Virus record (IMG/VR): IMGVR_UViG_3300047554_000187 | Location: 1-49,037 of that record | Source of the DNA: a virus | DNA length: 49,037 nucleotides | Direction: 5' to 3' (one strand) | Part shown: piece after piece, positions 20,050-46,500 of the stretch | Layout of the letters: every line of letters begins with the position of its first letter | Numbering within the stretch: position 1 is the stretch's first letter | The notes under the pieces: model-generated | What the model was told of the DNA's origin: nothing | The model's database searches: none | The model's input: the letters and a program-made list of their open reading frames with translations, nothing else | Translations under genes and position numbers: made by a program

Positions 20050-20602
20050 TTGCTATTGCTTCGGGCGTTAGGTTTAGAATCTCACTCTTCTTCTCTTTAG
20101 TGTCGCCAAAGAGTTTGTCTTCGTAAGCTTCAATACGTTTAATGATGGCATCGCACTCAGCCATTAGCTTCGACTTAATCTCAAGCGCTTGCAGTTTATC
20201 CTTATCAGTCTTGTATGCTGTGATAGGAGATAGCAACTCGCCTTGATACTGCCACAATACCTCCTCGTTAGCGGCTAGTATTGACCACACCTTAGACGAT
20301 TGATAGCGTAGGTAGGAGTTTATATAGGCAAGGATACTATTGTCCTTTAAATCAAAGATATCAGATGCATCCCAATTGATGCCAGCCATCTCAGCAGCCT
20401 CCTCCTTACGCTCCTGTATATTAGATATCTTTAATCGCAGTGGACTCTTCTGGTCGTATATCAGTGCAACGTAAATAAGAATCGGGATTTCCGAAGCGGG
20501 TACGTTCCCAAATACCTGTTTGATAATTGGATTTTTTGCAAGGTTGCTATCATAGATAGGTATTGCTAAGTCTGCGAAATCTTCTTTGTTGAATAATGCC
20601 AT
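20042..20602 (-). CDS. Protein upstream of terL, possible small terminase, 186 aa
   Basis: I start this at ATG 20602 (MALFNKEDFADLAIPIYDS). An upstream TTG at 20653 would add an Arg-rich stretch and is less likely. The protein is soluble and helical, with a C-terminal charged coiled coil (ECDAIIKRIEAYEDKLFGDT). Its place directly before terL, with 8-base overlap, is where the small terminase normally lies, but no helix-turn-helix motif is clear. Families with this layout are common in Bacteroidota phages. Function remains a guess from position. Confidence 0.65.
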   Translation of the reverse strand: MALFNKEDFADLAIPIYDSNLAKNPIIKQVFGNVPASEIPILIYVALIYDQKSPLRLKISNIQERKEEAAEMAGINWDASDIFDLKDNSILAYINSYLRYQSSKVWSILAANEEVLWQYQGELLSPITAYKTDKDKLQALEIKSKLMAECDAIIKRIEAYEDKLFGDTKEKKSEILNLTPEAIANV

Positions 20603-20720
20603 AATATCTTGGCGGGCGGCGCGGCGTCCCAACCTTTTTTCTTTTTGTATCAATTAAGAGAAGCAAGCTTCTTCTTTTTGTTGCAATATTGGATAGCCTT
20701 TAGGCTCCGCAAAATAGTAT

Positions 20721-20843
20721 TTATTAAATCTATTTATTATACTATATATTATACTGCTACTGTAGTAGCATACCCCTGCCCCTGTAGTAGCATACCCCCT
20801 GCTACCAGAGTAGCATACCCCCTGCCCCTACAGTAGCATAGGG
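20721..20843. repeat. Iteron-like array with adjacent AT-rich stretch (candidate origin or initiator-binding site)
   Basis: GTAGCATA starts at 20765, 20787, 20810 and 20833, a spacing of 22-23 bases (about two helix turns). The first three copies continue as GTAGCATACCCC. Two palindromes TGCTAC-N4-GTAGCA lie at 20755-20770 and 20800-20815. Immediately left is a run of almost pure A/T (about 20715-20753). Repeats spaced by whole helix turns beside an AT-rich stretch are the usual form of a replication origin. The same palindrome (N4 = CACA) occurs inside the initiator gene at 29673-29688. It falls between the GroES-like gene and the terL upstream gene, where no gene is seen. Confidence 0.7.
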
Positions 20844-20846
20844 TAC

Positions 20847-21491
20847 CTAGTATTTTGTAGATAAAATGTCGCTTTGACGCACTGTATAGTACTCTTTGCC
20901 TTCAATCTTGTTTACAAAATTTGAGTTTTTGTTCAACAAAACCAATGAGCCAGTGCTTACCTCCAACTCATTTTCCCCTACTAACGGTTTACCAATATGT
21001 GAAAGTCTAGCAAACTTAGTTGATGGCTTCTTGTTGATACCAATTACTAGTCCTGACGCTGATGTTATAGCTTCAATCTTTTGACCATTAACTTCAACGT
21101 GATTAAACTCTTCTTCAACCACCGTTTCACACAAAGTCCAGCCGCCAACAGGCAATATATTACCACTCCTAACGACACAAAATACCCAATAATAAGGTAC
21201 TTTATAATAGTTCCCGTAGATACAGTTCGTTTCATCAGATGTAGTTAAGTAATGGAAGTATACAAGGTCACCTACCTGCACGTCTTTCTCTATCTCAGCA
21301 CCTTCTTCGTTGTAAGCCTTTCCGTCTGGTACAGCTATTACACGACCATAAATTCTAGCGTAATGTGTAGGATTAAATTCTGGGTCTATGTGGAGCTTTA
21401 AATTACCGTATTCAACAGTGTCATCCATTGTAGCACCGACCTCAATCACAACCGTGTTTGGTGGCGATTTCTTAATATCGTAAGTAAGCAT
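20847..21491 (-). CDS. GroES-like (chaperonin-10 fold) protein, 214 aa
   Basis: The C-terminal 50 residues match the GroES pattern: GKPLVGENELEVSTGSLVLL, then NKIEGKEYYTVRQSDIL, the usual end 'K...G.EY.xVR..DIL'. The N-terminal half has a second, related-looking part (ARIYGRVIAVPDGKAYNEEG, then VQVGDLVYFHYLTT), giving a protein about twice as long as a bacterial GroES (near 97 aa). Phage co-chaperonins (for example T4 gp31) work with host GroEL to fold the capsid protein. As the first late gene, right after the main late promoter, it is well placed for that. The match was read by eye. Confidence 0.7.
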   Translation of the reverse strand: MLTYDIKKSPPNTVVIEVGATMDDTVEYGNLKLHIDPEFNPTHYARIYGRVIAVPDGKAYNEEGAEIEKDVQVGDLVYFHYLTTSDETNCIYGNYYKVPYYWVFCVVRSGNILPVGGWTLCETVVEEEFNHVEVNGQKIEAITSASGLVIGINKKPSTKFARLSHIGKPLVGENELEVSTGSLVLLNKNSNFVNKIEGKEYYTVRQSDILSTKY

Positions 21492-21518
21492 TAATAATGT
21501 TTGTTTGGTTTGTAAAGG

Positions 21519-21549
21519 TAAAGATAGATAGATATTACCATATTGTCAA
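21519..21549 (-). promoter_or_regulatory. Main late promoter (minus strand)
   Basis: On the minus strand TTG (21549-21547), 20 bases, then TATCTTTA (21526-21519), one base from TAnnTTTG. The leader that follows has AACCAAACA and reaches ATG 21491. The spacer holds GGTAATAT (21539-21532), a half-site of the palindromes at 21747 and 22107, so a repressor could cover this promoter. Confidence 0.65.
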
Positions 21550-21746
21550 TTTTATGCAGCGCGTAGTTGTTTGTAGAGGGTTATATATATCAGCGGCGGG
21601 GTCAGCGAGTCAAGCGACAAACGCCTTTTTTGAAGCGGGTGGGGTCATTTTGCTGAATTAGAAATCCAAAAATAGGGTCGCAGAGAGTCATTCTTATAGT
21701 ATAGGTTTCCAAAGGTTACCTTACCCATAGTATCCCTGTTAGCATC

Positions 21747-21760
21747 GGTAATATGTTACC
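21747..21760. promoter_or_regulatory. Operator-like palindrome GGTAATATGTTACC
   Basis: A perfect 5-bp inverted repeat (GGTAA / TTACC) with a 4-base centre. Related sites occur at 22107-22120 (GGCAATATATTACC), as an incomplete copy at 22064-22075, and as a half-site inside the late promoter. All are preceded by or near TATCGG/ATCGG. A shared binding protein is inferred. Confidence 0.45.
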
Positions 21761-22063
21761 TATCTATTCCTATAGTAGGGAGGAATGCACAAGCAGTCAC
21801 ACCAAGGAAGGGAAACCCCGCAGAACAGAACATCGACAACAGGATATAATGCGGAAACAGGGTGAACGGGCGCGGGTTTGGATGAGGTGAGTTATCCCCT
21901 TGCGACTGACTCCTAGAGAAAAACCTCCCATTTTACTAGCATTCAATTTAAGGGGTCAAATCTTTGATTTAAGACATTTTCTCTTTCAGATGTCCATTCT
22001 ATAAGCCTAGAGCGAGATAATGCAACAGGCGCAAAATGGGGGTATTTGATGGCGTATTATATC

Positions 22064-22120
22064 GGTAATATAATGCTGAAAATAGGGGTTTTTTGGGTGT
22101 TTTATCGGCAATATATTACC
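22064..22120. promoter_or_regulatory. Second pair of GGTAATAT-type operator-like sites
   Basis: ATCGGTAATATAATG at 22061-22075 and ATCGGCAATATATTACC at 22104-22120 share the ATCGG-(T/C)-AATAT core with the palindrome at 21747. The spacing of 43 bases is about four helix turns, compatible with cooperative binding. Confidence 0.4.
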
Positions 22121-22478
22121 TGTTAAAAAAAACTTTTTTTCATCATTTTTTGCCATTTTTGGGCATTTTTGAAAAATAAATCTGCGCGATTCCTAGAAAC
22201 CATTGTACTTTACGAGGAAATATTGGGGGTAAGTCTTGACTCGTATTTCATTAAAGTATTATAATTGCCCATCGGTTCGCCAAACGAGGCACACCACTCA
22301 GTCCTGAGAATTTTAATGAGCCAATCGGCTTCGCCCCAATGCGAGGGCAGAACAAGAGGGCATCGAAGCCCGCGTTCTTTGACATAATGGAATAAGCAGT
22401 GTGACACCTTCAATGGTGCGAGGTTCGAGAGACCCCATTGCGACACACTCAGTGAGACGGGTGTTAATGTAATCAAAT

Positions 22479-22533
22479 GACTAGCCCAAGCGTAAGGGAT
22501 GTGGCAGAGGCTCGCAACCTCTCCTAGTCACCA
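22479..22533 (+). ncRNA. Truncated tRNA-like element with ACCA end, 55 nt
   Basis: The 5' strand GACTAGC (22479-22485) pairs with CCTAGTC (22523-22529) except at the seventh position (C/C). A T arm with 5-bp stem AGAGG/CCTCT and 7-base loop CTCGCAA fits the tRNA geometry exactly, with the acceptor strand starting right after it. A discriminator A and encoded CCA follow (22530-22533). Only 20 bases lie between the acceptor 5' strand and the T arm, too few for D plus anticodon arms. It lies directly before a repeated hairpin leader and the gene at 22591. Confidence 0.5.
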
Positions 22534-22549
22534 AATCAAATCAATTTCT

Positions 22550-22582
22550 AACTTTCCCTTCCTGTGTAGGTCAACAGGCTTG
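22550..22582 (+). promoter_or_regulatory. Repeated hairpin leader, copy A1 (33 nt)
   Basis: A 33-base sequence identical to 23185-23217. It contains the hairpin CCTGT-GTAGGTCA-ACAGG (22561-22578), ending 12 bases before ATG 22591. Both copies follow a tRNA-like element and precede a start codon, so it is probably a 5' untranslated control element. Confidence 0.6.
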
Positions 22583-22590
22583 AAAACAAA

Positions 22591-23130
22591 ATGACAACAT
22601 TCAAACAAACAAGAAAAGTAGGTGTAGCGGGTGGATTTTTCAATCAGTTAATGGGCAACAACTCAAGCGTACCTGTAGTAGGCAAGGGGGCAACAATCCT
22701 GATGTATTCTGACCGCGATGCATACCAAGTCACTTGGGTTTCTGACTGCGGTACGAAGTGTCACATCAACCCTGCGATTATGAAGTATACAGGAACAGGA
22801 TATGGTGATGAGCGGTACGAGTATCAAGGCTACAGAGAAGATTGCTACCAAGAAATAGTTTGGCATAAAGGCGCTTGGTGTCAGGTAGAAAATCACATCA
22901 AATATGAGCCTAAGTTTGAGCGTATGATGAACGAAAAATTCCACGACAAGGGCAAGTATTGGTTCGGGTCTAACGCAGACGATGAGGCGAAAGCGATGGG
23001 TATCAATAACTTGTTCAATGAGGACTGCAGACTTAACTTGGTGGCAGGTATCACAAAAATGATTAAGCGCTACCACAAGGTGTCTATTTTATTCGGGTCA
23101 ATTGATAAGTATCGTGACCCATCATTCTAA
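22591..23130 (+). CDS. Conserved-type phage/plasmid protein of unknown function, 179 aa
   Basis: First gene of the plus-strand programme. The segment VGKGATILMYSDRDAYQVTW (residues about 30-49) recalls a family in phages and mobile elements, with '(G)KGAT.LMYSDR.AY' followed by a conserved Lys-rich region, but no function is known to me. There are several Cys (SDCGTKC, REDCYQ, AWCQ) and many aromatic residues. The ATG follows the hairpin leader A1. Early expression suggests a role in host take-over or defence evasion (inference). Confidence 0.7.
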   Translation: MTTFKQTRKVGVAGGFFNQLMGNNSSVPVVGKGATILMYSDRDAYQVTWVSDCGTKCHINPAIMKYTGTGYGDERYEYQGYREDCYQEIVWHKGAWCQVENHIKYEPKFERMMNEKFHDKGKYWFGSNADDEAKAMGINNLFNEDCRLNLVAGITKMIKRYHKVSILFGSIDKYRDPSF

Positions 23131-23172
23131 TCTAGCTTGGAGCAGGCAGGGGTTCGATTCCCCTGCTAGATT
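23130..23172 (+). ncRNA. Minimal tRNA-like element: acceptor stem plus T arm only, 43 nt
   Basis: ATCTAGC (23130-23136) pairs perfectly with GCTAGAT (23165-23171). The T arm is canonical: AGGGG, loop TTCGATT, CCCCT (23148-23164), joined directly to the 3' acceptor strand, with T23172 in the discriminator position. Only 11 bases separate the two parts, so D and anticodon arms are absent. A competing stem GCAGGGG/CCCCTGC is possible. It starts on the last base of the preceding stop codon and leads into leader copy A2. No CCA is encoded. Confidence 0.55.
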
Positions 23173-23184
23173 CTTTTAATTTTC

Positions 23185-23217
23185 AACTTTCCCTTCCTGT
23201 GTAGGTCAACAGGCTTG
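23185..23217 (+). promoter_or_regulatory. Repeated hairpin leader, copy A2 (33 nt)
   Basis: Exact repeat of 22550-22582. The hairpin CCTGT / ACAGG ends at 23213, 14 bases before ATG 23228. Confidence 0.6.
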
Positions 23218-23227
23218 TTAATTACTT

Positions 23228-23815
23228 ATGTTACAATCAGCAAAAAACCTAGTAAAGTTTGTTCAAAAGTTCAACCCATCTGATGAAGCGGTGATTTCAT
23301 TAGGTATCAATCGCTTTGAAGAAGTGGAGGCGTTCTTACACCTTAACAAGGGTAATGGTGGTAAGATATTCTCTCAAATTATGCCGACACTAGGCATCGA
23401 ATTTGACGCAAGATTATCTAGCGATAAATGCTCACAATATCTTGATTTAGTAGGCGAGGTTGATGGCTACAAGGTTAAGCTAACATTCCTTAAGGAGATT
23501 GAGTTTGTTGACATCACGAGGGGTAAGAAAATCCTTCCTGATTCTGACGATGAAATCATTTCAAATTATGTAGCTACATCTTCACCTCTATTTGACGCAG
23601 TATTAAAGAAAGATTACGCGTTGAGAATGAACGTTGAAGAGTGGATAAAATTCGAAAAGGCATTCGAAAAAGAAAACTTTGAAGCAATCGATACATTCAT
23701 TAACAGATTCGATGATTTTAATATGTTAATGGGTTGCGCTTTTTCTTGGAGCAGAACTGAAGAAGGCACTGATTATTGGAGCAAAATAGCCAATAGAACG
23801 AAAAACGTATTATAA
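23228..23815 (+). CDS. Early protein of unknown function, 195 aa
   Basis: Soluble, charged protein with mixed helices. It begins MLQSAKNLVKFVQKFNPSDE, has a beta-like centre (YLDLVGEVDGYKVKLTFLKE) and an acidic/aromatic C-terminal helix region (EEWIKFEKAFEKENFEAID). No family was recognised. It is preceded by leader A2 and followed after one base by a 28-codon membrane peptide gene. Confidence 0.65.
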   Translation: MLQSAKNLVKFVQKFNPSDEAVISLGINRFEEVEAFLHLNKGNGGKIFSQIMPTLGIEFDARLSSDKCSQYLDLVGEVDGYKVKLTFLKEIEFVDITRGKKILPDSDDEIISNYVATSSPLFDAVLKKDYALRMNVEEWIKFEKAFEKENFEAIDTFINRFDDFNMLMGCAFSWSRTEEGTDYWSKIANRTKNVL

Positions 23816-23816
23816 T

Positions 23817-23903
23817 ATGAAATTCTTAATCTCATCATTCTTCGCACTAGCTATCTATATGGTGGCTAGTGCTTTAATTCAAATCATTCACATCTTATTC
23901 TAA
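23817..23903 (+). CDS. Membrane peptide, 28 aa
   Basis: ATG lies one base after the preceding stop. Almost the whole product is one hydrophobic helix (FLISSFFALAIYMVASALIQ). Frame and spacing suggest a real small gene; the function is unknown. Confidence 0.5.
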   Translation: MKFLISSFFALAIYMVASALIQIIHILF

Positions 23904-23908
23904 TTTTT

Positions 23909-24097
23909 ATGAAACCATTTATCATTGTAATCATCAGTACATTCCTAGGTCTTTACGCTATCTGCGCATTCGTTTCTTGGGACATAGCAGTTATGGCACA
24001 CGCTACCGAGAATGGTCGTTTAGCCTATATATTTGGAGGCTTTTTTCTTAGTGGTATTGCTTCTTGTATTGTAGCACACATCCAATCAGAGGAATAA
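23909..24097 (+). CDS. Two-TM membrane protein, 62 aa
   Basis: Two hydrophobic stretches (residues 4-24, FIIVIISTFLGLYAICAFVS, and 38-57, LAYIFGGFFLSGIASCIVAH) and a short acidic end. The stop codon overlaps the next ATG by one base (TAATG). Function unknown; early membrane proteins often act on the host envelope or on superinfection. Confidence 0.65.
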   Translation: MKPFIIVIISTFLGLYAICAFVSWDIAVMAHATENGRLAYIFGGFFLSGIASCIVAHIQSEE

Positions 24098-24219
24098 TGA
24101 AGACCTTCAACAAAGTAGTTGTCTTCTTCCTAGGGGAAGAGGCATCACAAGACAAGGGTGAGTTAATCACCGCTTTAGTAATCGCAACCTTATGCGCATT
24201 CCTTTTACCATTACTTTAA
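24097..24219 (+). CDS. Small single-TM protein, 40 aa
   Basis: The frame starts on the last base of the preceding stop (TAATG). A polar N-terminal half (FLGEEASQDKGELITA) is followed by a hydrophobic end (LVIATLCAFLLPLL). Function unknown. Confidence 0.55.
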   Translation: MKTFNKVVVFFLGEEASQDKGELITALVIATLCAFLLPLL

Positions 24220-24251
24220 TCTATCACGCTCAACTTTAGCACACAAATCTT

Positions 24252-25169
24252 ATGGCAACTCAAGCAGAATTAATCGACCAAATCAACGACACTATTATCG
24301 CAGGCTTACAATCTAAAGGCTTGCAATGGTTTAAACCTTTCAAGGATAGCGTAACCAATCAATGGAGCGCGTTACGCTCAAATGGAGCGCCTTACAAGGG
24401 TATTAATCAGTTCATCCTATCAGCCAAGGCAATCGATAAGGGGTGGGTTAATAAGTGGTTCACCTTCGCTCAAGTGAGCAAGCTAGATGGGCGAGTTAAC
24501 AAGGGCGAGAAGTCTACGGATGTATACCTTTGGAAGGTCAACTTTGCGGTAGAGATAGCGGGTAAAGTTCAGTATTTCGATAAGCTAGAAAAAGTACCCG
24601 CACACCTACAAAAAGATGCTAAGAAAACGTTCTACCTACAGACATTCAAGGTGTTCTCTATCTCTCAGACGAGCCTGCCCATCGACACGCCTTCGCAACC
24701 TATCGAGGTAACAGAACTAGAGGCGGACGCAAACGCTGAGGCTATCCTAGAGGCTTGGACAAAGGAGGTAACCCTTAAGCATAGCGGACAAGGTCGCGCT
24801 TACTATTCGCCTAGCGGTGACTACATCCATATGCCCGCAAAGACAACGGAGCAATGGAAATCGAACGGGGATTACTACAAGGTATTCTTTCACGAAGCTA
24901 TCCACTCTACGGGTCACGAGTCTAGACTTAATCGCTTAGACAAGACGGCAAACTTTGGCTCTGACGAGTATTCTAAGGAGGAGTTGGTAGCTGAGTTAGG
25001 CGCGCTATATTTAGAGGCTATCACGGGCATTCAAGCAATCGTTGACGATGTCAAGAATTCGCAAGCATACATCAACGGATGGATTAGCAAATTGAAGTCT
25101 GACCCTAAGTTAATTATGAGTGCATCTACCAAGGCTCACGAAGCGGTAGAGTTAATCTTATCAAAGTAA
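24252..25169 (+). CDS. ardC: ArdC-like anti-restriction protein: ssDNA-binding domain plus zinc metallopeptidase, 305 aa
   Basis: The N-terminal 140 residues match the ArdC/DUF1738 domain (WFKPFKDSVTNQWSALRSNG, PYKGINQFILS, LYLW-type KSTDVYLWKV). The C-terminal domain has a zincin motif HEAIHSTGH (H214, E215, H218) with the acidic helix EELVAELGALYLE (about 243-255) as likely third ligand. ArdC-type proteins bind single-stranded DNA and protect incoming DNA from restriction. Full length and intact motifs suggest an active protein. As an early gene it fits protection of entering phage DNA. Confidence 0.88.
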   Translation: MATQAELIDQINDTIIAGLQSKGLQWFKPFKDSVTNQWSALRSNGAPYKGINQFILSAKAIDKGWVNKWFTFAQVSKLDGRVNKGEKSTDVYLWKVNFAVEIAGKVQYFDKLEKVPAHLQKDAKKTFYLQTFKVFSISQTSLPIDTPSQPIEVTELEADANAEAILEAWTKEVTLKHSGQGRAYYSPSGDYIHMPAKTTEQWKSNGDYYKVFFHEAIHSTGHESRLNRLDKTANFGSDEYSKEELVAELGALYLEAITGIQAIVDDVKNSQAYINGWISKLKSDPKLIMSASTKAHEAVELILSK

Positions 25170-25176
25170 TTCCACT

Positions 25177-25206
25177 ATCACGACCTTGCGGTGTATAGGC
25201 AACCGC
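25177..25206 (+). promoter_or_regulatory. Repeated hairpin leader, copy B1 (30 nt)
   Basis: A 30-base sequence identical to 25631-25660. Hairpin GCGGT-GTATAGGCA-ACCGC (25188-25206) ends 8 bases before ATG 25215. An alternative stem is TTGC/GCAA. It shares the shape, and a similar loop (GTA-AGG-CA), with the 33-base leader family. Confidence 0.6.
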
Positions 25207-25214
25207 TAACTATT

Positions 25215-25631
25215 ATGAGAATCTCAATATCAAATCCCCCAATAACAGGCGTATTAAATGAAGAGTGCTTACAAAATTGGAATATCAACGACCATCAACA
25301 AGACTTATTTGTCCCCATAATTATAGAGGGATGCATTGTTCAATTTACTGACACGATGGTTACGTCGACATCAAGTGGTGATGAGTTCTATTTTGTCAAG
25401 ATGAAAGAAGTATATTCTAGCGAAGAGATGCGATACGGATTTTTAACTTGGAGTTATGAGCCTGATTGCGATGGCGCATATCATAGTTTTAGCTTAATTA
25501 ATTTCGACCAATATTACTATGCAAATTCGCCCGTAGAGGATTTTAAATACGATAAGCAAGTAATTTCATTGATTGACGAGGAAGAAGTACTAGACCTCTT
25601 AACTACTTACGATAGAACTAGAAAATATTAA
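25215..25631 (+). CDS. Early protein of unknown function, 138 aa
   Basis: I start at ATG 25215; a GTG start at 25191 would lie inside the repeated hairpin leader and add residues (MYRQP) shared only because of that repeat. The protein is acidic, aromatic and beta-like (FVPIIIEGCIVQFTDTMVT, FLTWSYEPDCDGAYHSFSLI). No family was recognised. Its last base is the first of leader copy B2. Confidence 0.65.
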   Translation: MRISISNPPITGVLNEECLQNWNINDHQQDLFVPIIIEGCIVQFTDTMVTSTSSGDEFYFVKMKEVYSSEEMRYGFLTWSYEPDCDGAYHSFSLINFDQYYYANSPVEDFKYDKQVISLIDEEEVLDLLTTYDRTRKY

Positions 25632-25660
25632 TCACGACCTTGCGGTGTATAGGCAACCGC
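25631..25660 (+). promoter_or_regulatory. Repeated hairpin leader, copy B2 (30 nt)
   Basis: Exact repeat of 25177-25206, again ending 8 bases before an ATG (25669). The fixed distance to the start codon in both copies argues for a translation-level role. Confidence 0.6.
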
Positions 25661-25668
25661 ACAATCTT

Positions 25669-25929
25669 ATGAATGTCAGAGAAATTTTAGAAACCAACAA
25701 CGACTTGCGCTCACGCTATGCTGAGGCAATCAGAAACTTTTGCAAGGAACGTATGTATTCTAATTCGGGGGACAAAGAAGCACCCGCTATCAGAAACATT
25801 ATGGACATCTTCTTTTGGATGGGCGAAATCTCAGAGAAGCAGATGGATTGGGTAGTACGCTACGCTACCAAGAATAGAATTACCGAGGCAACAACAAATT
25901 CCACAAGCAACATTTTAACCGAGCAATAA
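25669..25929 (+). CDS. Early protein of unknown function, 86 aa
   Basis: ATG 25669 follows leader B2; the GTG frame from 25645 is rejected for the same reason as above. A helical protein (VREILETNNDLRSRYAEAIR, IMDIFFWMGEISEKQMDWVV) with a Thr/Ser-rich tail. The segment 'SEKQ..W..RYA' resembles small helical motifs in phage replication-associated proteins, but no family can be named. Confidence 0.65.
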   Translation: MNVREILETNNDLRSRYAEAIRNFCKERMYSNSGDKEAPAIRNIMDIFFWMGEISEKQMDWVVRYATKNRITEATTNSTSNILTEQ

Positions 25930-25931
25930 TT

Positions 25932-26129
25932 ATGGAAGATGTTAAGGTAAATATCCTAGAACTTGCAAGCGAACTTGCTCATTTAGAACTAATTAGTTGG
26001 GTGTCTAATGAAAGCGAATTGTATGAAGACCCCGAAGCGGGCGTCACAAATTATACAGACTATTATCAAGATATTTTTAACGACTTGTATGATAAATATT
26101 ATACAATCATAGACCGAATAAAAAGATGA
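25932..26129 (+). CDS. Small acidic protein, 65 aa
   Basis: Acidic, Tyr/Asp-rich (NILELASELAHLELISWVSN, TDYYQDIFNDLYDKYYTIID). The stop overlaps the next ATG (ATGA). Acidic small early proteins are often DNA mimics or protein inhibitors; that is only a possibility here. Confidence 0.6.
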   Translation: MEDVKVNILELASELAHLELISWVSNESELYEDPEAGVTNYTDYYQDIFNDLYDKYYTIIDRIKR

Positions 26130-26323
26130 GAGCGAACGAACTATTGACCTATCTATTAGAACTAGATAAGTCCCACGATTTATCAAAAGTAGAGGTGTTC
26201 TATCGTACTGACAGAGACTCAAACGAAGAGCGTGTATGGCACGTCGAGGAGGACTTGTACGACGAAGAGAATAACTCAGAATTAATATCAATAATGTTTT
26301 TAAACGACGACTCAGAAATATAA
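26126..26323 (+). CDS. Small acidic protein, 65 aa
   Basis: Strongly acidic (about a third Asp/Glu: DSNEERVWHVEEDLYDEENN), starting in an ATGA overlap. The pattern 'L.LL..LDKSHDLSKVEVFYR' resembles small phage proteins with a beta-hairpin core. Function unknown. Confidence 0.6.
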   Translation: MRANELLTYLLELDKSHDLSKVEVFYRTDRDSNEERVWHVEEDLYDEENNSELISIMFLNDDSEI

Positions 26324-26327
26324 TATT

Positions 26328-26552
26328 ATGACACAATCAGATAAACTTAAGCACTACCTATCTCAGTATATGGCTGAGGTAGATTTCCAGAACTTTGGAC
26401 AAATGACATACGAAGAGCATTATAATCAAAAGATGAATATGCGAGACTTCGACTTACTAGCATATTGGCTAGACTACAATGGAGTATTTGACGGAGGCGA
26501 GGATATGATATCTAAATTGAAAATCTTAACGAATAAAACAACAATCATATGA
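26328..26552 (+). CDS. Small protein of unknown function, 74 aa
   Basis: Helical, Met/Tyr/Asp-rich (KHYLSQYMAEVDFQNFGQMT, YNGVFDGGEDMIS). It overlaps the next gene by 4 bases (ATGA). No family was recognised. Confidence 0.6.
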   Translation: MTQSDKLKHYLSQYMAEVDFQNFGQMTYEEHYNQKMNMRDFDLLAYWLDYNGVFDGGEDMISKLKILTNKTTII

Positions 26553-29140: not shown

Positions 29141-29359
29141 ATGGACACACAACCAACAAGCGAGGAACTAGAGTTGATGTGCTATCGGGCGATACTTGAC
29201 CTCAGAAAGGTACGGCTTCAACAAGAGATTAAAGATTATTCTCAGTTGTTTAAGTACGCTTCGCCTGAGATGTCATCATACCCTAAGCTAGTTAAGATAG
29301 TAGATGGGATGGTGCGCGACCTAAGCGCAATAAACGAAGAGTTAACAAAGGCAATATGA
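29141..29359 (+). CDS. Small protein upstream of the initiator, 72 aa
   Basis: Helical, charged (LDLRKVRLQQEIKDYSQLFK, ELELMCYRAI). ATG 29141 lies directly after the T-tract of the attenuator; a frame start at 29093 would be inside the hairpin. The stop overlaps the initiator ATG by 4 bases, so the two are probably translated together. It could be a regulator or replication accessory. Confidence 0.65.
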   Translation: MDTQPTSEELELMCYRAILDLRKVRLQQEIKDYSQLFKYASPEMSSYPKLVKIVDGMVRDLSAINEELTKAI

Positions 29360-30003
29360 ATTTTATAATAATCCCTTATGATTTATTGGCGCGAACAGAC
29401 TTGACCGCATCAGAAAAAAATCTGATGGGATTAATTCATAGTTTGTCGGCTAAGGAGGGATACTGCTTTGCAAGCAATACCTACCTAGCAAGCGTGTTAG
29501 GATTAACTGCATCGGGAATAAGAAAGTGTTTACATAACCTTGAATCACTTAATCTTATTACAAGAACTTTAAAGTATAAGAGCAACAATGAGGTTGAATC
29601 TAGAGAGATAAAGCTAGTAACCCCTATGCTACTAGAGGGGCATACCCCTATGCTACTACAAGGGCATACCTCTGCTACCACAGTAGCACATAATAAAGAG
29701 ATTAATAAAAAAGAAAACAATAACTCTATTGAACGCTTCGAAGAGTTTTGGAATATCTACAACAAGAAGGTAGGTAAAGAGAAGACAAAAGCTAAGTGGG
29801 CTAAGCTAAAGGATAAGGAGGTAGATGCTATATTTAAGGCGCTACCTAGTTACATAGCTAGTAGAGAGGTGAAGTATAGAAAAGACCCCGAAAGATACCT
29901 TACTCATAGGGTGTGGGAGGATGAAATGCCGAGCGAAACTCCTTTAACAATTCCACTATCAGCAACCAAGATTACCGAAATCATTATCCCAGACAATTTT
30001 TAA
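29356..30003 (+). CDS. Replication initiator, lambda-O/DnaD-like, with iterons inside the gene, 215 aa
   Basis: Residues 1-85 form a winged-helix DNA-binding domain of the replication-protein type (IIPYDLLARTDLTASEKNLM, then NTYLASVLGLTASGIRKCLH as the recognition region). A low-complexity linker follows (about 88-120), including octapeptide repeats TPMLLEGH and TPMLLQGH encoded by 24-bp repeats. The C-terminal part (RFEEFWNIYNKKVGKEKTKA, onward to YLTHRVWEDE) is the common phage domain that recruits helicase or loader. The DnaB gene follows after 2 bases. Layout and internal repeats are the same as in lambda O, whose gene contains the origin. Confidence 0.85.
   Translation: MNFIIIPYDLLARTDLTASEKNLMGLIHSLSAKEGYCFASNTYLASVLGLTASGIRKCLHNLESLNLITRTLKYKSNNEVESREIKLVTPMLLEGHTPMLLQGHTSATTVAHNKEINKKENNNSIERFEEFWNIYNKKVGKEKTKAKWAKLKDKEVDAIFKALPSYIASREVKYRKDPERYLTHRVWEDEMPSETPLTIPLSATKITEIIIPDNF
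29621..29690. repeat. Intragenic iteron-like repeats (candidate replication origin)
   Basis: A 24-bp unit containing CCCCTATGCTACTA and GGGCATACC occurs at 29621 and again at 29645, with a partial third unit at 29662. It ends in the palindrome TGCTAC-CACA-GTAGCA (29673-29688). Eight bases, TATGCTAC, are the reverse complement of the GTAGCATA core at 20.76-20.84 kb; 17 of 19 bases match between 29672-29690 and 20799-20817. A/T-rich sequence follows (29691-29735), as in the lambda origin. Being 24 bp long, the repeats keep the reading frame. Confidence 0.7.
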
Positions 30004-35238: not shown

Positions 35239-35387
35239 GGTATAAGCAAGGTGTGATTTGTCATAGCGACATTGATATGGTTAAGACTAATCTTAATAGA
35301 TTAATTCACGCCAAAGGACGTGCGCAACAGGCATCTTATAGAGCAATAAGAGAATTTAAAATTTATTTGTCTCAAAATTTGACTTAA
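35148..35387 (+). CDS. Small protein of unknown function, 79 aa
   Basis: Charged, helical (NENYEKAIQWATKYLEKNTE, INRLIHAKGRAQQ-like end). Last gene before the structured RNA region; the promoter for that region overlaps its stop codon. Confidence 0.6.
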   Translation: MADNAKNENYEKAIQWATKYLEKNTEPREVRYKQGVICHSDIDMVKTNLNRLIHAKGRAQQASYRAIREFKIYLSQNLT

Positions 35388-35409
35388 CAAAAACGTTTAC
35401 CTATCTTTG
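35378..35409 (+). promoter_or_regulatory. Promoter of the structured RNA region
   Basis: TTTG (35378-35381), exactly 20 bases, TATCTTTG (35402-35409). This is one of the best matches to the Bacteroidota consensus in the window, and no coding sequence begins within 540 bases downstream. Expected transcription start is close to 35415. Confidence 0.7.
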
Positions 35410-35519
35410 AGTCAGGTTGAAGGAAGTTAGTCACCATATTACCGAATAACACGAAGTCTCGGTGTGAGTAGGGAGGGAGCAAAACATAGTTATCTGAGTT
35501 GGTGTGAGGATAGCTATAT

Positions 35520-35612
35520 AGTCAGGTAGCTTAAAGGTCATAAGGAAATTGACCCTTGAGGATTAGAGCACTCGAAAGAGATGAGGTGCGGGTTCGATTC
35601 CTGTCCTGACTA
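35520..35612 (+). ncRNA. tRNA-like element 3, 93 nt, non-standard body
   Basis: AGTCAGG (35520-35526) pairs perfectly with CCTGACT (35605-35611), followed by A as discriminator. T arm: GCGGG, loop TTCGATT, CCTGT (35588-35604), with two G-U pairs. The body does not give a normal D and anticodon arm. Its strongest helix is GGTCA / TGACC around a 9-base loop, and there is a CTC-GAAA-GAG tetraloop hairpin. A serine- or leucine-type long variable arm was considered, but no plausible anticodon loop was found. No CCA is encoded (ACTA follows). Confidence 0.5.
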
Positions 35613-35673
35613 CTAGAGAGAACCGTTAGTTTTCGGCTGTTTACAACTGGAAAACTAGCAGACGTCATACTCT

Positions 35674-35697
35674 ATGACTGCTGGAAAGACAGCATTT
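35674..35697 (+). repeat. 24-bp direct repeat with GCTG-GAAAGA-CAGC hairpin, copy 1
   Basis: 23 of 24 bases match 35791-35814. Each copy forms a 4-bp stem around GAAAGA and is followed by a short T/A run. They lie between the two tRNA-like elements and could be processing or protein-binding sites. Confidence 0.6.
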
Positions 35698-35790
35698 TAC
35701 TTGTTTAAATATACGACTATAAATATTGGCAATGAGGTTCTCAGTCGTATAACCCTCGATACACGGTTTGCCACTGCAAGGTCGCAAGTA

Positions 35791-35814
35791 ATGACAGCTG
35801 GAAAGACAGCATTT
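35791..35814 (+). repeat. 24-bp direct repeat, copy 2
   Basis: Second copy, ending 2 bases before tRNA-like element 4. It differs from copy 1 only at the sixth base (A for T). Confidence 0.6.
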
Positions 35815-35816
35815 AT

Positions 35817-35937
35817 AGACAATAGGCGGGGGAGGAACACGCACTGAAAGTATGCAAACCTAGAGATTGAAGTCAGGATGAGCTGTCGCATACTACTGAA
35901 GGCTCACATTTCACAGGTTCGAATCCTGTATTGTCTA
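35817..35937 (+). ncRNA. tRNA-like element 4, 121 nt, with large insertion
   Basis: AGACAAT (35817-35823) pairs perfectly with ATTGTCT (35930-35936); A follows. T arm is perfect: ACAGG, loop TTCGAAT, CCTGT (35913-35929). A D-like arm is possible just after the acceptor (GCG ... CGC with a G-rich loop). In place of an anticodon arm there is a long segment closed by AGTATGC (35849-35855) / GCATACT (35888-35894). Too short for a group I intron, too long for a normal tRNA. The 3' flank ACTA is the same as in element 3. Confidence 0.5.
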
Positions 35938-35957
35938 CTAACTAAATAAATAATAAA

Positions 35958-36149
35958 ATGGAAGAGTTCGAATTAAGATTACAAATTGAATATTCAGAGT
36001 TAACAGAGAGAATATCAAAACTAGAAGATTTTATTAACTCTACTCATAGAGCGAAATTATCTAAATCGCACGAAGATTTATTAATGATTCAGTATATGAC
36101 TATGCAATCTTATGCGCAAATTCTGCATACGAGATTACTAGATTTATAA
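35958..36149 (+). CDS. crAss001_48-related small protein, 63 aa
   Basis: The pattern EYSELTERISKLEDFINS, then DLLMIQYMTMQSYAQILHTR, is that of the short helical 'crAss001_48-related' family found in many phages: an amphipathic helix with 'L..RI.KLE.F', then 'Q...M..Y..IL..R'. Function unknown. First gene after the RNA region. Confidence 0.75.
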   Translation: MEEFELRLQIEYSELTERISKLEDFINSTHRAKLSKSHEDLLMIQYMTMQSYAQILHTRLLDL

Positions 36150-42921: not shown

Positions 42922-43389
42922 TTACTTAAAAGTTAAGCGGTATAGTGTTTGCTCCGTTAATGCTTTAATCTCATCTAAGATGTTTAATAAAGCAGTGTTG
43001 CCCATTACTAACATTCTAGCTTCTCCAGAGATGTATCCCTTAAATGAAGTTAAGAATGCTACAGGAGCGTCCATTGTATATGGCTTAACCTCAAGCTCGC
43101 AACCTAACATAATACGACCATAACAACCTTGGTATGCCTCAATGAATTTATCCATTAAGTCATTGAATCCTTCGTAGAACTCACCCATTGCCTCGTGCTC
43201 TGCGAAAGAAGAAGTTTGCCAATGGAAAACTTTTGCCTGCGCCGACGCTTCTAACATCTCACATAATAACTCTTCTTGAGGCGATTCGCCTGATTCAGAT
43301 TCGCCTGCAGGTTGTGAGTAATCACTCATTAATTTTGAGAATGCTTGCTTCTGAGCACCCATCTTCTGCATTTCTATTAAACTTGCCAT
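42922..43389 (-). CDS. Ferritin-like/Dps-like phage protein (DUF5856-type), 155 aa
   Basis: ATG 43389 (MASLIEMQKMGAQKQAFSKL) follows a purine-rich GAAGAAGAAGTAAT leader. The region AQAKVFHWQTSSFAEHEAMG, FYEGFNDLMDKFIEAYQGCY reads as a four-helix bundle. HWQ...EH.A...FY (H, E and D residues) resembles Dps/ferritin ligands; T4-like and crAss-like phages have such DUF5856 proteins. An iron-oxidising role for phage DNA protection is possible; function not proven. Confidence 0.7.
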   Translation of the reverse strand: MASLIEMQKMGAQKQAFSKLMSDYSQPAGESESGESPQEELLCEMLEASAQAKVFHWQTSSFAEHEAMGEFYEGFNDLMDKFIEAYQGCYGRIMLGCELEVKPYTMDAPVAFLTSFKGYISGEARMLVMGNTALLNILDEIKALTEQTLYRLTFK

Positions 43390-43390
43390 A

Positions 43391-43537
43391 TTACTTCTTC
43401 TTTTTCGATGCAAGATACTTAAAATAATTCACTTGTTTTTCACGCTTTTCTATACCTGCTTTAGTCTTAGCAGTTCCAAGGTTCTTGCCAGTTGTTTTGG
43501 ATACTAACTTGTAGCCTCCAGCGGTTTTCTTTATCAT
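43391..43537 (-). CDS. Small basic late protein, 48 aa
   Basis: MIKKTAGGYKLVSKTTGKNL, GTAKTKAGIEKREKQVNYFK, ending in a Lys run. The pattern 'K..GGY.LVSK..GKNLG...TK..A..R..QV.YFK' is common in phage proteins of this size. The ATG overlaps the stop of the large polyvalent gene (ATGA). Confidence 0.75.
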   Translation of the reverse strand: MIKKTAGGYKLVSKTTGKNLGTAKTKAGIEKREKQVNYFKYLASKKKK

Positions 43538-46500
43538 TTCTTCTTTATCGTTTTTGCTTTTAATTCTTGCAATTTTTTAATCATTTCTTGAGGCTCTTGT
43601 GATTCTCCAACGATTTCCAACATACGACCCTGTAATTCGATTGCTAAATCAGAATACTCATCTTGAATTTCTTTAATTCTAGCGTCCTTGTTAGCTTCAC
43701 TTTTTATCTTACCTGTGTCATAAAGATATCTTGTGTTATCAATTTCTTGCAATGATTTCTTCTCTTTTGCTTTCCAGCTGTTTATAATATCTCCTACCTC
43801 ATAATCCATAGTATTTAAATATCTAGAATACTTATCTACTAAAATATCTGGATTAATCTCCTCATTCTTAACCGCAATACTTAACATTGCGTTTAATGGA
43901 TTATTTATCTGCCCTTTGTAATTAGATTTCTCATTAAAGGCATCCATCATTGATTCTGCCCAAGCAGCGTATGGAGTTCCCCAAGAACGCATAACGTGAT
44001 TGACTGAGTTAAACCATCTTTGTTTACTAGAAACTGTTTGAGAGTTAAATCTACTAGCTCTTGGGTCATCTATTCGAAGACCACTATTATCAATATTAAA
44101 TGCTGCTTGAGCAATTGGTCCTGATAATGGGTCAGAAAACTTAGGCATATAACCTGAGCCAAATACTCCATTCCCTTTTCCTAAGTATTGAACTTGTAAT
44201 GGAGTATATTCAGACATATCTGAAATCAAGTTGCCTTTATAACCCTTATCATACATACTATATGGAGAAAGATATCTAGCAACGTTGTATTCATTATTAC
44301 CAATCTTCCATCCAAATGAAACATCTAAATCTCCTACTTTTAATTTTGTAGTATATGGTCTATTTTCGCGCGCTTCTCTTTCTTCATCTGATTCTCCAGA
44401 AGCTTTAGAGAATGCTCGTGCTAATCCAGCCATCATTGCAACAGACATCACGCCCCATATAGGTCTTTCCTTAAATGAGTTATACAATATCCTCATTGAG
44501 TCAGGCTTAAATTTGATGAATGCATTACCTATTATTGGTAATTTAGCAGCAAGCTTGAATCCATTAGGAACTGTATTATAGTTCTGCATTTGTTTAGCAG
44601 TCATATCTATGGCTTCCTCTTTTGTTAATCCATAGTTCTCAACTAATGTTCTATAATATGCAATCTTTGTAATATCGTCAACCTTACCATATGTGTCAGA
44701 TAACAATTTATCAACCGTCTCATAAGCTTGAGCACCCTTATCTCCAATTACCCCTCTGATAATATTAAGACCTTGCGATTCTTTGCTTGCCTTTTTAATA
44801 TCTAATCCAGAAAGTTGTCCACCTAAAAGACCCGCCTTACTCAATTCTTGAGCCCAAGTATCGTATGTATCTAACGACTTTCTTGCATCTGGCTTTCTAG
44901 TAAATAATGTAATAGGGTCAACGCCTCCCATCATACTAAAGAAGTATCCTGAAATTACGTTGGCTGCTCTTGTTAATGGGCTACCTACAGTTTTAAGCTT
45001 CTTAGTAAATTGTCTAAGGAACATATTATCATACTTAGTACTTATGTCATCAACTCTAGACATAAATTCTGTGACAAACTGTGTTCCATACAGTTGCTCA
45101 TAAATCTGCAATGGTACATACTTATTTGTTAAGTCCCCAAATCTCTTAGGATTGCCGTTACCGTTTAATTTCTTATAATACTTTTGATTTTTTTCTGGAA
45201 CCTCCGAAAGCTTGCTATATGACTTATAGTTAGGGTCATTGCTAACCTTTTGCGCAAAGTCAAATATAGCCTTGTTATGAGCCATCATTCCCATCCTTTT
45301 TATTGTAATGTAGATAGGGTCTGATAAACTTAAGCTATCGTGTATCTTATCAAAGTCTTTTCTTTTTCTGAACATATTAAATTCAGCTCCAGCCTTAGAC
45401 TTCTTTATTGCATCATATATATCTCCGTATTGCTTCTCTTCTATTTGTCTGTATGTACGAGCAAAGTACTTCCCTTTATTTTTCTCGTATGTATTTTGGT
45501 CTAAGAATCCATTTCTATAGTGCCACTCGTGAATAAAATCATTGGTAGCTCGTAAGTAATTAAATAAACGTAGTTCATTAAATGAAAGGTCTTCTACATT
45601 CTTAGGCAATCCCTCTTGTGGTTCCTTTGCGAAAGCTTCAGGGTCTAAAAGGGAGTGAACTCTATATAGTGCACGAGTATCGTTTCCTATCATATTGTTC
45701 ATTCTTTCGCCAATCTGAGTAAGTAAATTATTAGAGTTATTCTTGCCTCCAAATAATTCTCTTCTCGCTTTTTGAAACTCTTCACTTGTTGTAAGGTTTG
45801 TAACAAAAGTCTCAGTAAAATGCTGCAATTCTTTTGCGGCAACATTATTTGAATTCTGAGCCTTAACAAATAATCCTTTTATAGCATCCTCAGTATAACC
45901 AATAGCATCCTTCCATACACTATTCAAAGACAGTTCTTTAGATATAGGATTACCATTTTTGTCTTTAGTGTTTACCTTAACAAGCGTCGCGTTACCGACC
46001 TTTCTTATGCCACCAAATCCAGCGCCTAACCCTTTTGCAAGGCTTCTAGTAATCATATTATCTGCGATTGCTTCGCTTGCATTTCGATAGCCTTTCATCA
46101 CAAATCCCATTTCCTTTGCAGTCTTCTCATCGCTTAATTGGTCAGCTAAATGTGAGAACATTTCATCGGGATTTTCAAACATAGTATCCATCTTATATGG
46201 ATTAGATGTCTGAGACTTAGACTTAGTTCCAGTTGTCTTTGTAATAATTACTCCAGCGGCTCCAAAGGAATTATTCTTTTCTACGGTAGCATTATCGCCT
46301 AATATTCCTTTTACATATTCAACAAGCTCATTCCCGTCATAACCTTTTTGGAATACATCAATGATTTTACCATCTTGCTTTCTTTTAATAATGTAGCTCT
46401 TAGGCTCAGGACCTAATTCAAAGTTCTTTGCGCCATCAATATCTCCAGCAAATTTTCTTGAACTAATTACGGCTGTACCATTTTCGTTTAAGTGAGCAAA

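Follow-up and report, generated by a model that had tools for sequence, protein, structure and literature searches.

Upstream of the early genes of a virus, a short stretch folds into the acceptor stem and T arm of a tRNA, with a mere linker in place of the D and anticodon arms. The questions raised by this locus are whether such a truncated structure is real and what purpose it could serve ahead of a protein gene. The window, by which the whole stretch of DNA analysed is meant, is a virus record of 49,037 bp whose early genes begin at position 22591. Its terminase is akin to those of Flavobacterium, Cellulophaga and, more distantly, human-gut 'cr' phages, with identities of at most 32% among the matches listed, and its other genes include those for an SU10-like capsid protein and ArdC. 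Comparison with named phages gave no DNA similarity for positions 20500-26500 of the window.

The two tRNA-like elements of the window

Two tRNA-like elements, W1 and W2, were delimited in the early region together with the hairpin leaders and genes that follow them (Table 1). The acceptor strands of W1, GACTAGC (22479-22485) and CCTAGTC (22523-22529), pair in 6 of 7 positions, the mismatch being the inner C.C, and form a 6-bp helix (22479-22484/22524-22529). Its T arm (22506-22522) comprises a stem paired in all five positions (AGAGG 22506-22510, CCTCT 22518-22522) and the 7-nt loop CTCGCAA (22511-22517), a linker of 20 nt (22486-22505) replaces the D and anticodon arms, and ACCA is encoded at 22530-22533. 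This anatomy is, in every part and coordinate, the one described in the initial annotation. Compared with the acceptor and T arm architecture of RNase P substrates, W1 has 11 of 12 pairs plus ACCA. Its T loop is non-canonical, with C54 and C58 deviating from the tRNA consensus, a point absent from the initial annotation. W2 is composed of an acceptor (23130-23135/23166-23171), a T stem (23147-23152/23160-23165), the T loop TTCGATT (23153-23159), a D-like loop containing TTGG and the trailer TCTT. The tRNA-like traits sought (an acceptor/T helix of about 12 bp, a TTCRA T loop and the GG of a D loop) are found in W2 and in the class described below; W1 is without the canonical T loop.

Table 1. 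Features of the early-gene region (positions in the window)
Feature	Position	Strand	Remarks
W1, mini-tRNA of the first-gene type	22479..22533	+	stem and loop parts; pair changes in 11 position-homologous sequences
Hairpin leader, copy 1	22552..22582	+	CCTT 22557-22560; stem 22561-22565/22574-22578
First early gene, 179 aa	22591..23130	+	without Pfam or PHROG match
W2, mini-tRNA of the short-linker type	23130..23171	+	covariance model E 5e-16 (W2 among the 6 model-building sequences)
Hairpin leader, copy 2	23187..23217	+	31 nt identical to copy 1
Second early gene, 195 aa	23228..23815	+	homologues downstream of a mini-tRNA in L133, L135, L164, L167
Variant hairpin leader, GCGGT/ACCGC stem	25184..25209	+	no cleavage device upstream
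Variant hairpin leader	25638..25663	+	no cleavage device upstream

Neither ARAGORN nor Rfam called a tRNA at W1 or W2, no Rfam family reached its threshold on either of them, and Rfam at E up to 5 gave no tRNA match in positions 21500-26000. A full or split tRNA was ruled out by these misses and by the lack of a cloverleaf with an anticodon arm, and a tmRNA, whose tRNA-like halves are separated by a tag reading frame and pseudoknots, was discarded on account of a linker of just 11-20 nt and of the lack of any ARAGORN or Rfam match.

Single-sequence folding gives no proof for the two elements: the z-score of W1 is -0.50, with 58 of 200 shuffles folding equally well, and that of W2 is -1.52, which is little support. 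The evidence for the reality of W1 is comparative instead of energetic. It is found again in L167 and L139 with identical stems and an altered linker, and in an alignment of 11 sequences of the first-gene type, W1 included, these three have common stems and the CTCGCAA loop, the remaining 8 having TTCGATT or TTCGACT. Acceptor pair 3 is C-G in 8 sequences and U-A in 3, pair 5 is A-U in 10 and G-C in 1, pair 6 is G-C in 10 and C-G in 1, and T-stem pair 3 appears as C-G (4), A-U (3), G-C (3) or U-G (1); compensatory changes affect pairs 3, 5 and 6 of the acceptor and the first three pairs of the T stem. In L139 and L143 the next genes are orthologous (87% identity), and the acceptors are GACTAG/CTAGTC versus GATTAG/CTAATC. 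Judged from these alignments, W1 is a real element: relatives have it at the same place and retain its paired helix through changes on both sides. Directly upstream of the first-gene mini-tRNA in L133, L136, L143, L132 and L142 there is a small hairpin of constant loop and varying stem (AAGC-AAGGGTTAT-GCTT, GTGC-AAGGGTTAT-GCAC, ATAC-AAGGGTTAT-GTAT, ATTC-AAGGCTTAT-GAAT), which was not seen upstream of W1.

The succession of tRNA-like helix, hairpin leader and gene noted earlier at W1 and at the 23130 element was confirmed, and comparison of both modules in relatives revealed that both types are conserved with their pairing kept. As to the proposal that the module had been duplicated, it holds for the leader, copied letter for letter, and was abandoned in its strict sense: W1 belongs to the type of the first gene of an early operon, with a longer linker, and W2 to the short-linker type, which is found at numerous gene junctions and also in phages unrelated to this one, so that the two do not stem from one recent duplication. 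The parts of the module mix freely. Mini-tRNAs without a leader of the window type are present in L136 and L150, and the leaders at 25184 and 25638 lack a mini-tRNA.

As regards the genes, the stop codon of the 179-aa gene (TAA, 23128-23130) shares one nucleotide with W2, namely its first. A protein search with this gene found 4 loci, and none of its homologues in L122-L125 has a mini-tRNA upstream; the corresponding search with the 195-aa gene gave no relatives in viral contigs and none in phages. Other signals are present elsewhere in the window. The stretch GTTCTTTGACATA (22374-22390), overlapped by a weak Rfam match to DUF2693 RNA (E 2.3), resembles a boxA-type antitermination signal and may be part of the early-operon leader RNA. 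At 20751-20843 and 29620-29690, near a GroES-like gene and inside the gene 29356-30003, a sequence of some 22 nt, CTGCTACTGTAGTAGCATACCC, is repeated in direct or reverse-complement form; these repeats are possibly iterons or operator sites. The region 35380-35960 is non-coding and contains a tRNA-like gene of ambiguous anticodon (35520-35612; Rfam tRNA 35.2 bits, ARAGORN 'tRNA-???'), the direct repeat ATGAC(T/A)GCTGGAAAGACAGCATTT at 35674 and 35791, and a second T-arm end at about 35914-35936, which is resembled in L129 and L130 by one lying directly ahead of a hairpin leader.

A class of mini-tRNAs at gene junctions

The general form of the class is a 12-bp acceptor/T helix with a TTCRA T loop, a YGG 'D loop', no anticodon arm and a pyrimidine at position 74, in 41-57 nt. 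The best fit for 45 elements of equal length, a set pre-selected for pairing, has six pairs in the acceptor, stacked on another six in the T stem: positions 18 and 36 pair in all 45, and 7-36 fails in 29. A pyrimidine precedes the linker GG in 96 of 101 elements (TTGG in 58; the GG itself was required), which is reminiscent of Y17 G18 G19 in the D loop of tRNAs. Position 74, the second base past the helix, is a pyrimidine in 96 of the 101 (C in 67, T in 29); A occupies position -1 in 57/101 and a full CCA is rare. The architecture of an RNase P substrate, with stacked 12-bp helix and T loop, 5' leader and tRNA-like trailer, is found in the class. In L193 and L229, each with 4 mini-tRNAs, the acceptor is constant within the locus (ACCCAC/GTGGGT and ACCCTA/TAGGGT, respectively) and the linker varies; the array of 10 elements in L211 has mostly different helices.

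A covariance model was built from 6 short-linker elements, W2 being included and W1 left out, and nothing in the window other than W2 scored below E 0.8. In its 19 matches from 19 sources, 39 pair cells are changed on both sides versus 1 on one side only, and 93.1% of the cells are paired versus 73.4% in shuffles; slid versions of the alignment collapse, none coming near the true register. Because such an alignment is fitted to structure, a test blind to the acceptor was made. For this purpose 77 IMG/VR stretches were picked by TTGGAGC, a gap of 3-9 nt and GGTTCGATTCC, and 50 items were obtained by leaving out 15 that overlap a called tRNA and 19 that are duplicates. A perfect in-register 6-bp acceptor is present in 39 of the 50, compared with a mean of 3.0 and a maximum of 8 when partners were re-dealt (400 shuffles), and the 39 contain 33 kinds of acceptor 3' strand. 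In an 80-row survey, whose selection was slightly unlike that of the 50 items, 47 of the 56 non-tRNA and non-redundant rows have at least 6 acceptor positions paired. A strict finder demanding at least 11 of 12 pairs plus GG, whose pair counts are therefore biased upward and are less impartial than the acceptor-blind test, gave 149 matches (tRNAs and duplicates included) on the forward sequence of 2.33 Mb of loci and 0 on the reversed one.

Simpler searches were less specific. Many of the matches listed by a first broad pattern were due to chance; a tighter one returned 17 stretches, 6 of them true mini-tRNAs with leader (L067, L068, L083, L164, L167, L170) and 11 chance matches or ordinary tRNA ends; and a 116-nt query found short, chance-like matches only. 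Two implausible finder hits (window 46382; L133 2831, the latter within a gene) score below 19, as do the 2 opposite-strand hits and the single reversed-control hit in 15 relative loci.

Once called tRNAs and duplicates were removed, 109 elements remained in 61 loci, which had mostly been fetched for carrying such elements. The upstream stop codon lies between -7 and +15 nt in 84 of these 109 (10% for random positions), with a peak at -1 (27 of 109), where that of W2 is also located. The placement is that of tRNA punctuation, exactly between genes and abutting the stop codon. In 36/109 the helix overlaps the stop codon, as it does at 23128-23130 of the window, so that cleavage at the 5' edge would cut into the codon; 15 elements were flagged as being inside a long ORF of the same strand. 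In the 15 loci of window relatives the devices head early genes and are encoded on the strand of these genes. L136 alone has 8 elements, at gene junctions and ahead of the first gene, most of them followed by a short hairpin and by a start codon 14-41 nt on.

The distribution is wide. The Streptomyces phage Joe has 8 hits, all of them on the leftward strand between 43.0 and 47.7 kb (record positions 43056-47675; reversed control 0); 7 are clear of annotated genes and 1 lies over a doubtful opposite-strand gene. There are 25 same-strand gaps that measure 60 nt or more, 7 of them filled by mini-tRNAs. In the Gordonia phage Morgana, 42.5 kb or half of the genome contain 9 (reversed control 0), and PSonyx and Caudovirus D_HF2_7 have one each at a gap, as judged by eye. 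None was found in phiC31 or in the 30-kb part of elemoA that was scanned. With the model R1, terminase-related isolates (elemoA, Cellulophaga phi18:3 and phi19:3, Calle_2, phi40:1 and Tenacibaculum Gundel_1) gave no hit in 3 cases and weak ones in 3 (E 0.007-0.5), and two sets of bacterial genomes gave 0/296 and 0/299, at most 21 candidates being scored per genome, too few for these zeros to indicate absence.

The hairpin leader and the hammerhead exchange

The leader consists of CCTT and a stem of varying pairs (NNGGT/ACCNN, CCTGT/ACAGG) around GTA(NA)GG(T)(C)A, and it stands a few nucleotides before the start codon. An identity such as that of its two copies in Table 1 has an expectation of 0 in 100 shuffles. 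Forty copies were counted in 20 phage records chosen for having one (reversed pattern 0) and 17 more in 6 further records; the motif is absent from all 6 isolates listed above. Five copies are located in bacterial genome contigs, four of which are labelled as members of Bacteroidota and one as Lachnospiraceae. The leader should not be seen as a mere partner of the mini-tRNA, since the majority of its copies have no device upstream, and it would rather be a 5' hairpin for stability or start. In L128 (1857-1960) a CCTT leader lies between tRNA-Ser and tRNA-Lys genes with no protein gene after it; owing to this location, its function may not be limited to that of a translation leader.

In several relatives a hammerhead ribozyme replaces the mini-tRNA, directly ahead of the leader or start of the next gene (L132/L083, L133/L067, L137, L142, L143 and L144). 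The hammerhead of L083 (11746-11794) reaches 34.4 bits against an Rfam threshold of 34; the others fit the core CUGANGA...GAAA...GUC by pattern and are below the threshold in the 14 sources scanned. That of L137 displays a compensatory change in stem I, from TGTAA/TTACA to TGTGA/TCACA. The exchange takes place before the same genes: a 310-aa gene is preceded by a hammerhead in L133, L137 and L144 and by a mini-tRNA in L135 (84-91% identity), and a 136-aa gene by a hammerhead in L142 and L143 and by a mini-tRNA in L167 (L142-L167, 90%). Rfam (E up to 5) detects no hammerhead in positions 21500-26000 of the window. According to an excerpt of PMC3088659, clustered phage hammerheads, some of which have been shown to cleave, are proposed to cut transcripts into mRNAs of operon or gene length. 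Taken together with that proposal, the exchange is the strongest hint that the mini-tRNA may be a cutting site. Covarying structure, placement at junctions, hammerhead exchange, multiplicity and spread are established for the class.

Putative function, rival explanations and known systems

Cleavage by RNase P is the natural hypothesis for the modules of W1 and W2, and it is quite probable that these elements and their class are natural minimal substrates of this enzyme, at which polycistronic phage mRNA would be cut just upstream of the hairpin leader; cleavage, the enzyme responsible and the role of the leader are all putative. In the mini-tRNA, acceptor helix and T arm are stacked and span about 12 bp between the T loop and the 5' end, YGG stands in for the D loop, and the trailer is tRNA-like. 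Such molecules cannot decode and would mimic what tRNA-processing enzymes measure. Host RNase P most likely cuts the 5' edges, near 22478/22479 and 23129/23130, which is favoured because, as an excerpt of PMC11143913 states, it cleaves hairpins that consist of an acceptor stem, a T stem and a T loop; the studies cited there include ones in which the enzyme acts on mRNAs of polycistronic operons or on the C4 antisense RNA of phages P1 and P7, and its contact with RCCA is also named. The 3' side is probably cut or trimmed by a nuclease that processes tRNA 3' ends. The polycistronic early mRNA would be converted into single-gene mRNAs, each beginning near a hairpin leader, which may protect the new 5' end, and in related phages the hammerhead ribozyme would do the same job in the same place.

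Several observations count against the RNase P reading: the A-rich position -1, the rarity of CCA, helices overlapping stop codons, weak folding, the T loop of W1, the homologues of the 179-aa gene that have no mini-tRNA and the leaders that mostly have no device. RNase P prefers U at position -1. The prevalence of A there and the few encoded CCA ends would suit another enzyme, the mini-tRNA being primarily a site for tRNase Z (3' edge) or for an RNase III/E-type nuclease, with RNase P unneeded; tRNase Z likewise reads acceptor and T arm, and the 3' edge is the one nearest to the leader or hairpin that would form the new 5' end. Nevertheless, this is improbable: placement is locked to the 5' edge, as the stop codon peak at -1 indicates, and that fits the ruler of RNase P, and the pyrimidine at 74 is kept. 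The latter is in agreement with the RCCA contact in the excerpt of PMC11143913.

Somewhat less doubtful, albeit unlikely, is an uncleaved cis element, in which the tRNA-elbow module would bind the ribosome, or else a protein of host or phage, and alter the stability or translation of the flanking cistrons. Its location, which is always intergenic or ahead of the first gene and near starts, and its link to leaders among the window relatives would suit such a function, stop codons overlapping the helix would be harmless, and the SAS/ESAS of mycobacteriophages are read as translation elements (excerpt of PMC3203893). However, what mini-tRNA and hammerhead share in the two gene groups where they are exchanged is cutting and not protein binding, and the 12-bp ruler and Y74 are features of tRNA processing. 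That the elements act as a tRNA mimic, charged or bound, or as a decoy against tRNA-attacking defences is very improbable, although EF-Tu and some nucleases bind acceptor and T arm and phages carry tRNAs against such defences: 33 kinds of acceptor in 39 elements imply no synthetase identity, the anticodon is absent, and a decoy would not need strict placement at gene junctions. Least credible of all are decayed tRNA genes, attachment sites or chance hairpins, to which the mismatch and odd T loop of W1 and the weak folding z-scores would lend themselves; for the class they are already refuted by both-sided changes with nearly no one-sided ones, by arrays at many junctions and by the empty reversed control over 2.33 Mb.

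On balance we lean towards the view that tailed phages of several bacterial phyla carry these anticodon-less mini-tRNAs, a class absent from Rfam and up to ten in a row, as a general punctuation for the host RNase P that is interchangeable with self-cleaving ribozymes; where the stop codon lies within the helix, cutting may also end translation of the upstream message. If RNase P does cut at the mini-tRNAs, they would constitute a general phage way of dividing mRNA, clustered phage hammerheads would gain a likely job and many short 'empty' gaps between phage genes would be explained. The mini-tRNA family could be added to annotation pipelines.

In mitochondria, RNase P and a 3' nuclease are guided by the tRNAs that separate genes, and mRNAs are released in this way; this punctuation is textbook knowledge, and minimal tRNA hairpins are a long-standing bench tool for RNase P. 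The phage elements are likewise tRNA structures between genes, with mRNA release being putative here, but mitochondrial tRNAs are working ones, whereas those of the phages are mimics of 41-57 nt that lack the anticodon and can be exchanged with ribozymes. Plant mitochondrial t-elements, the tRNA-like domain of tmRNA and mascRNA are also tRNA-like folds that serve RNA processing or have no anticodon arm; they differ in hosts, sizes and context, and none is an intercistronic phage element. The minimal RNase P substrates in the excerpt of PMC11143913 have the same architecture and helix length, and some mini-tRNAs an RCCA-like trailer, but those substrates are laboratory-made and the phage ones are natural, have a D-loop-like YGG and are embedded in mRNA. 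The clustered prophage hammerheads of Perreault et al. (2011; excerpt of PMC3088659) are similarly devices before single phage genes, at the same place in sister phages; they have another fold and cleave themselves, whereas mini-tRNAs would need an enzyme. Theta ribozymes, in the excerpt of PMC10879173, are also phage RNA-processing devices tied to tRNA structure in phages of Bacteroidota, but they are HDV-like, adjoin phage tRNAs and are proposed to trim the 3' ends of real (suppressor) tRNAs. The SAS/ESAS of cluster K mycobacteriophages and relatives are repeated, intergenic, near start codons and partly inverted repeats; in the excerpts of PMC3203893 and PMC7302621 a translation role is proposed and no T loop or acceptor is described. 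No report of elements like the present ones was found in the open-access papers searched, a scope outside which older phiC31 transcript work lies. Hence tRNA punctuation, minimal RNase P substrates and phage hammerheads are known, and the element and its use described here appear to be new.
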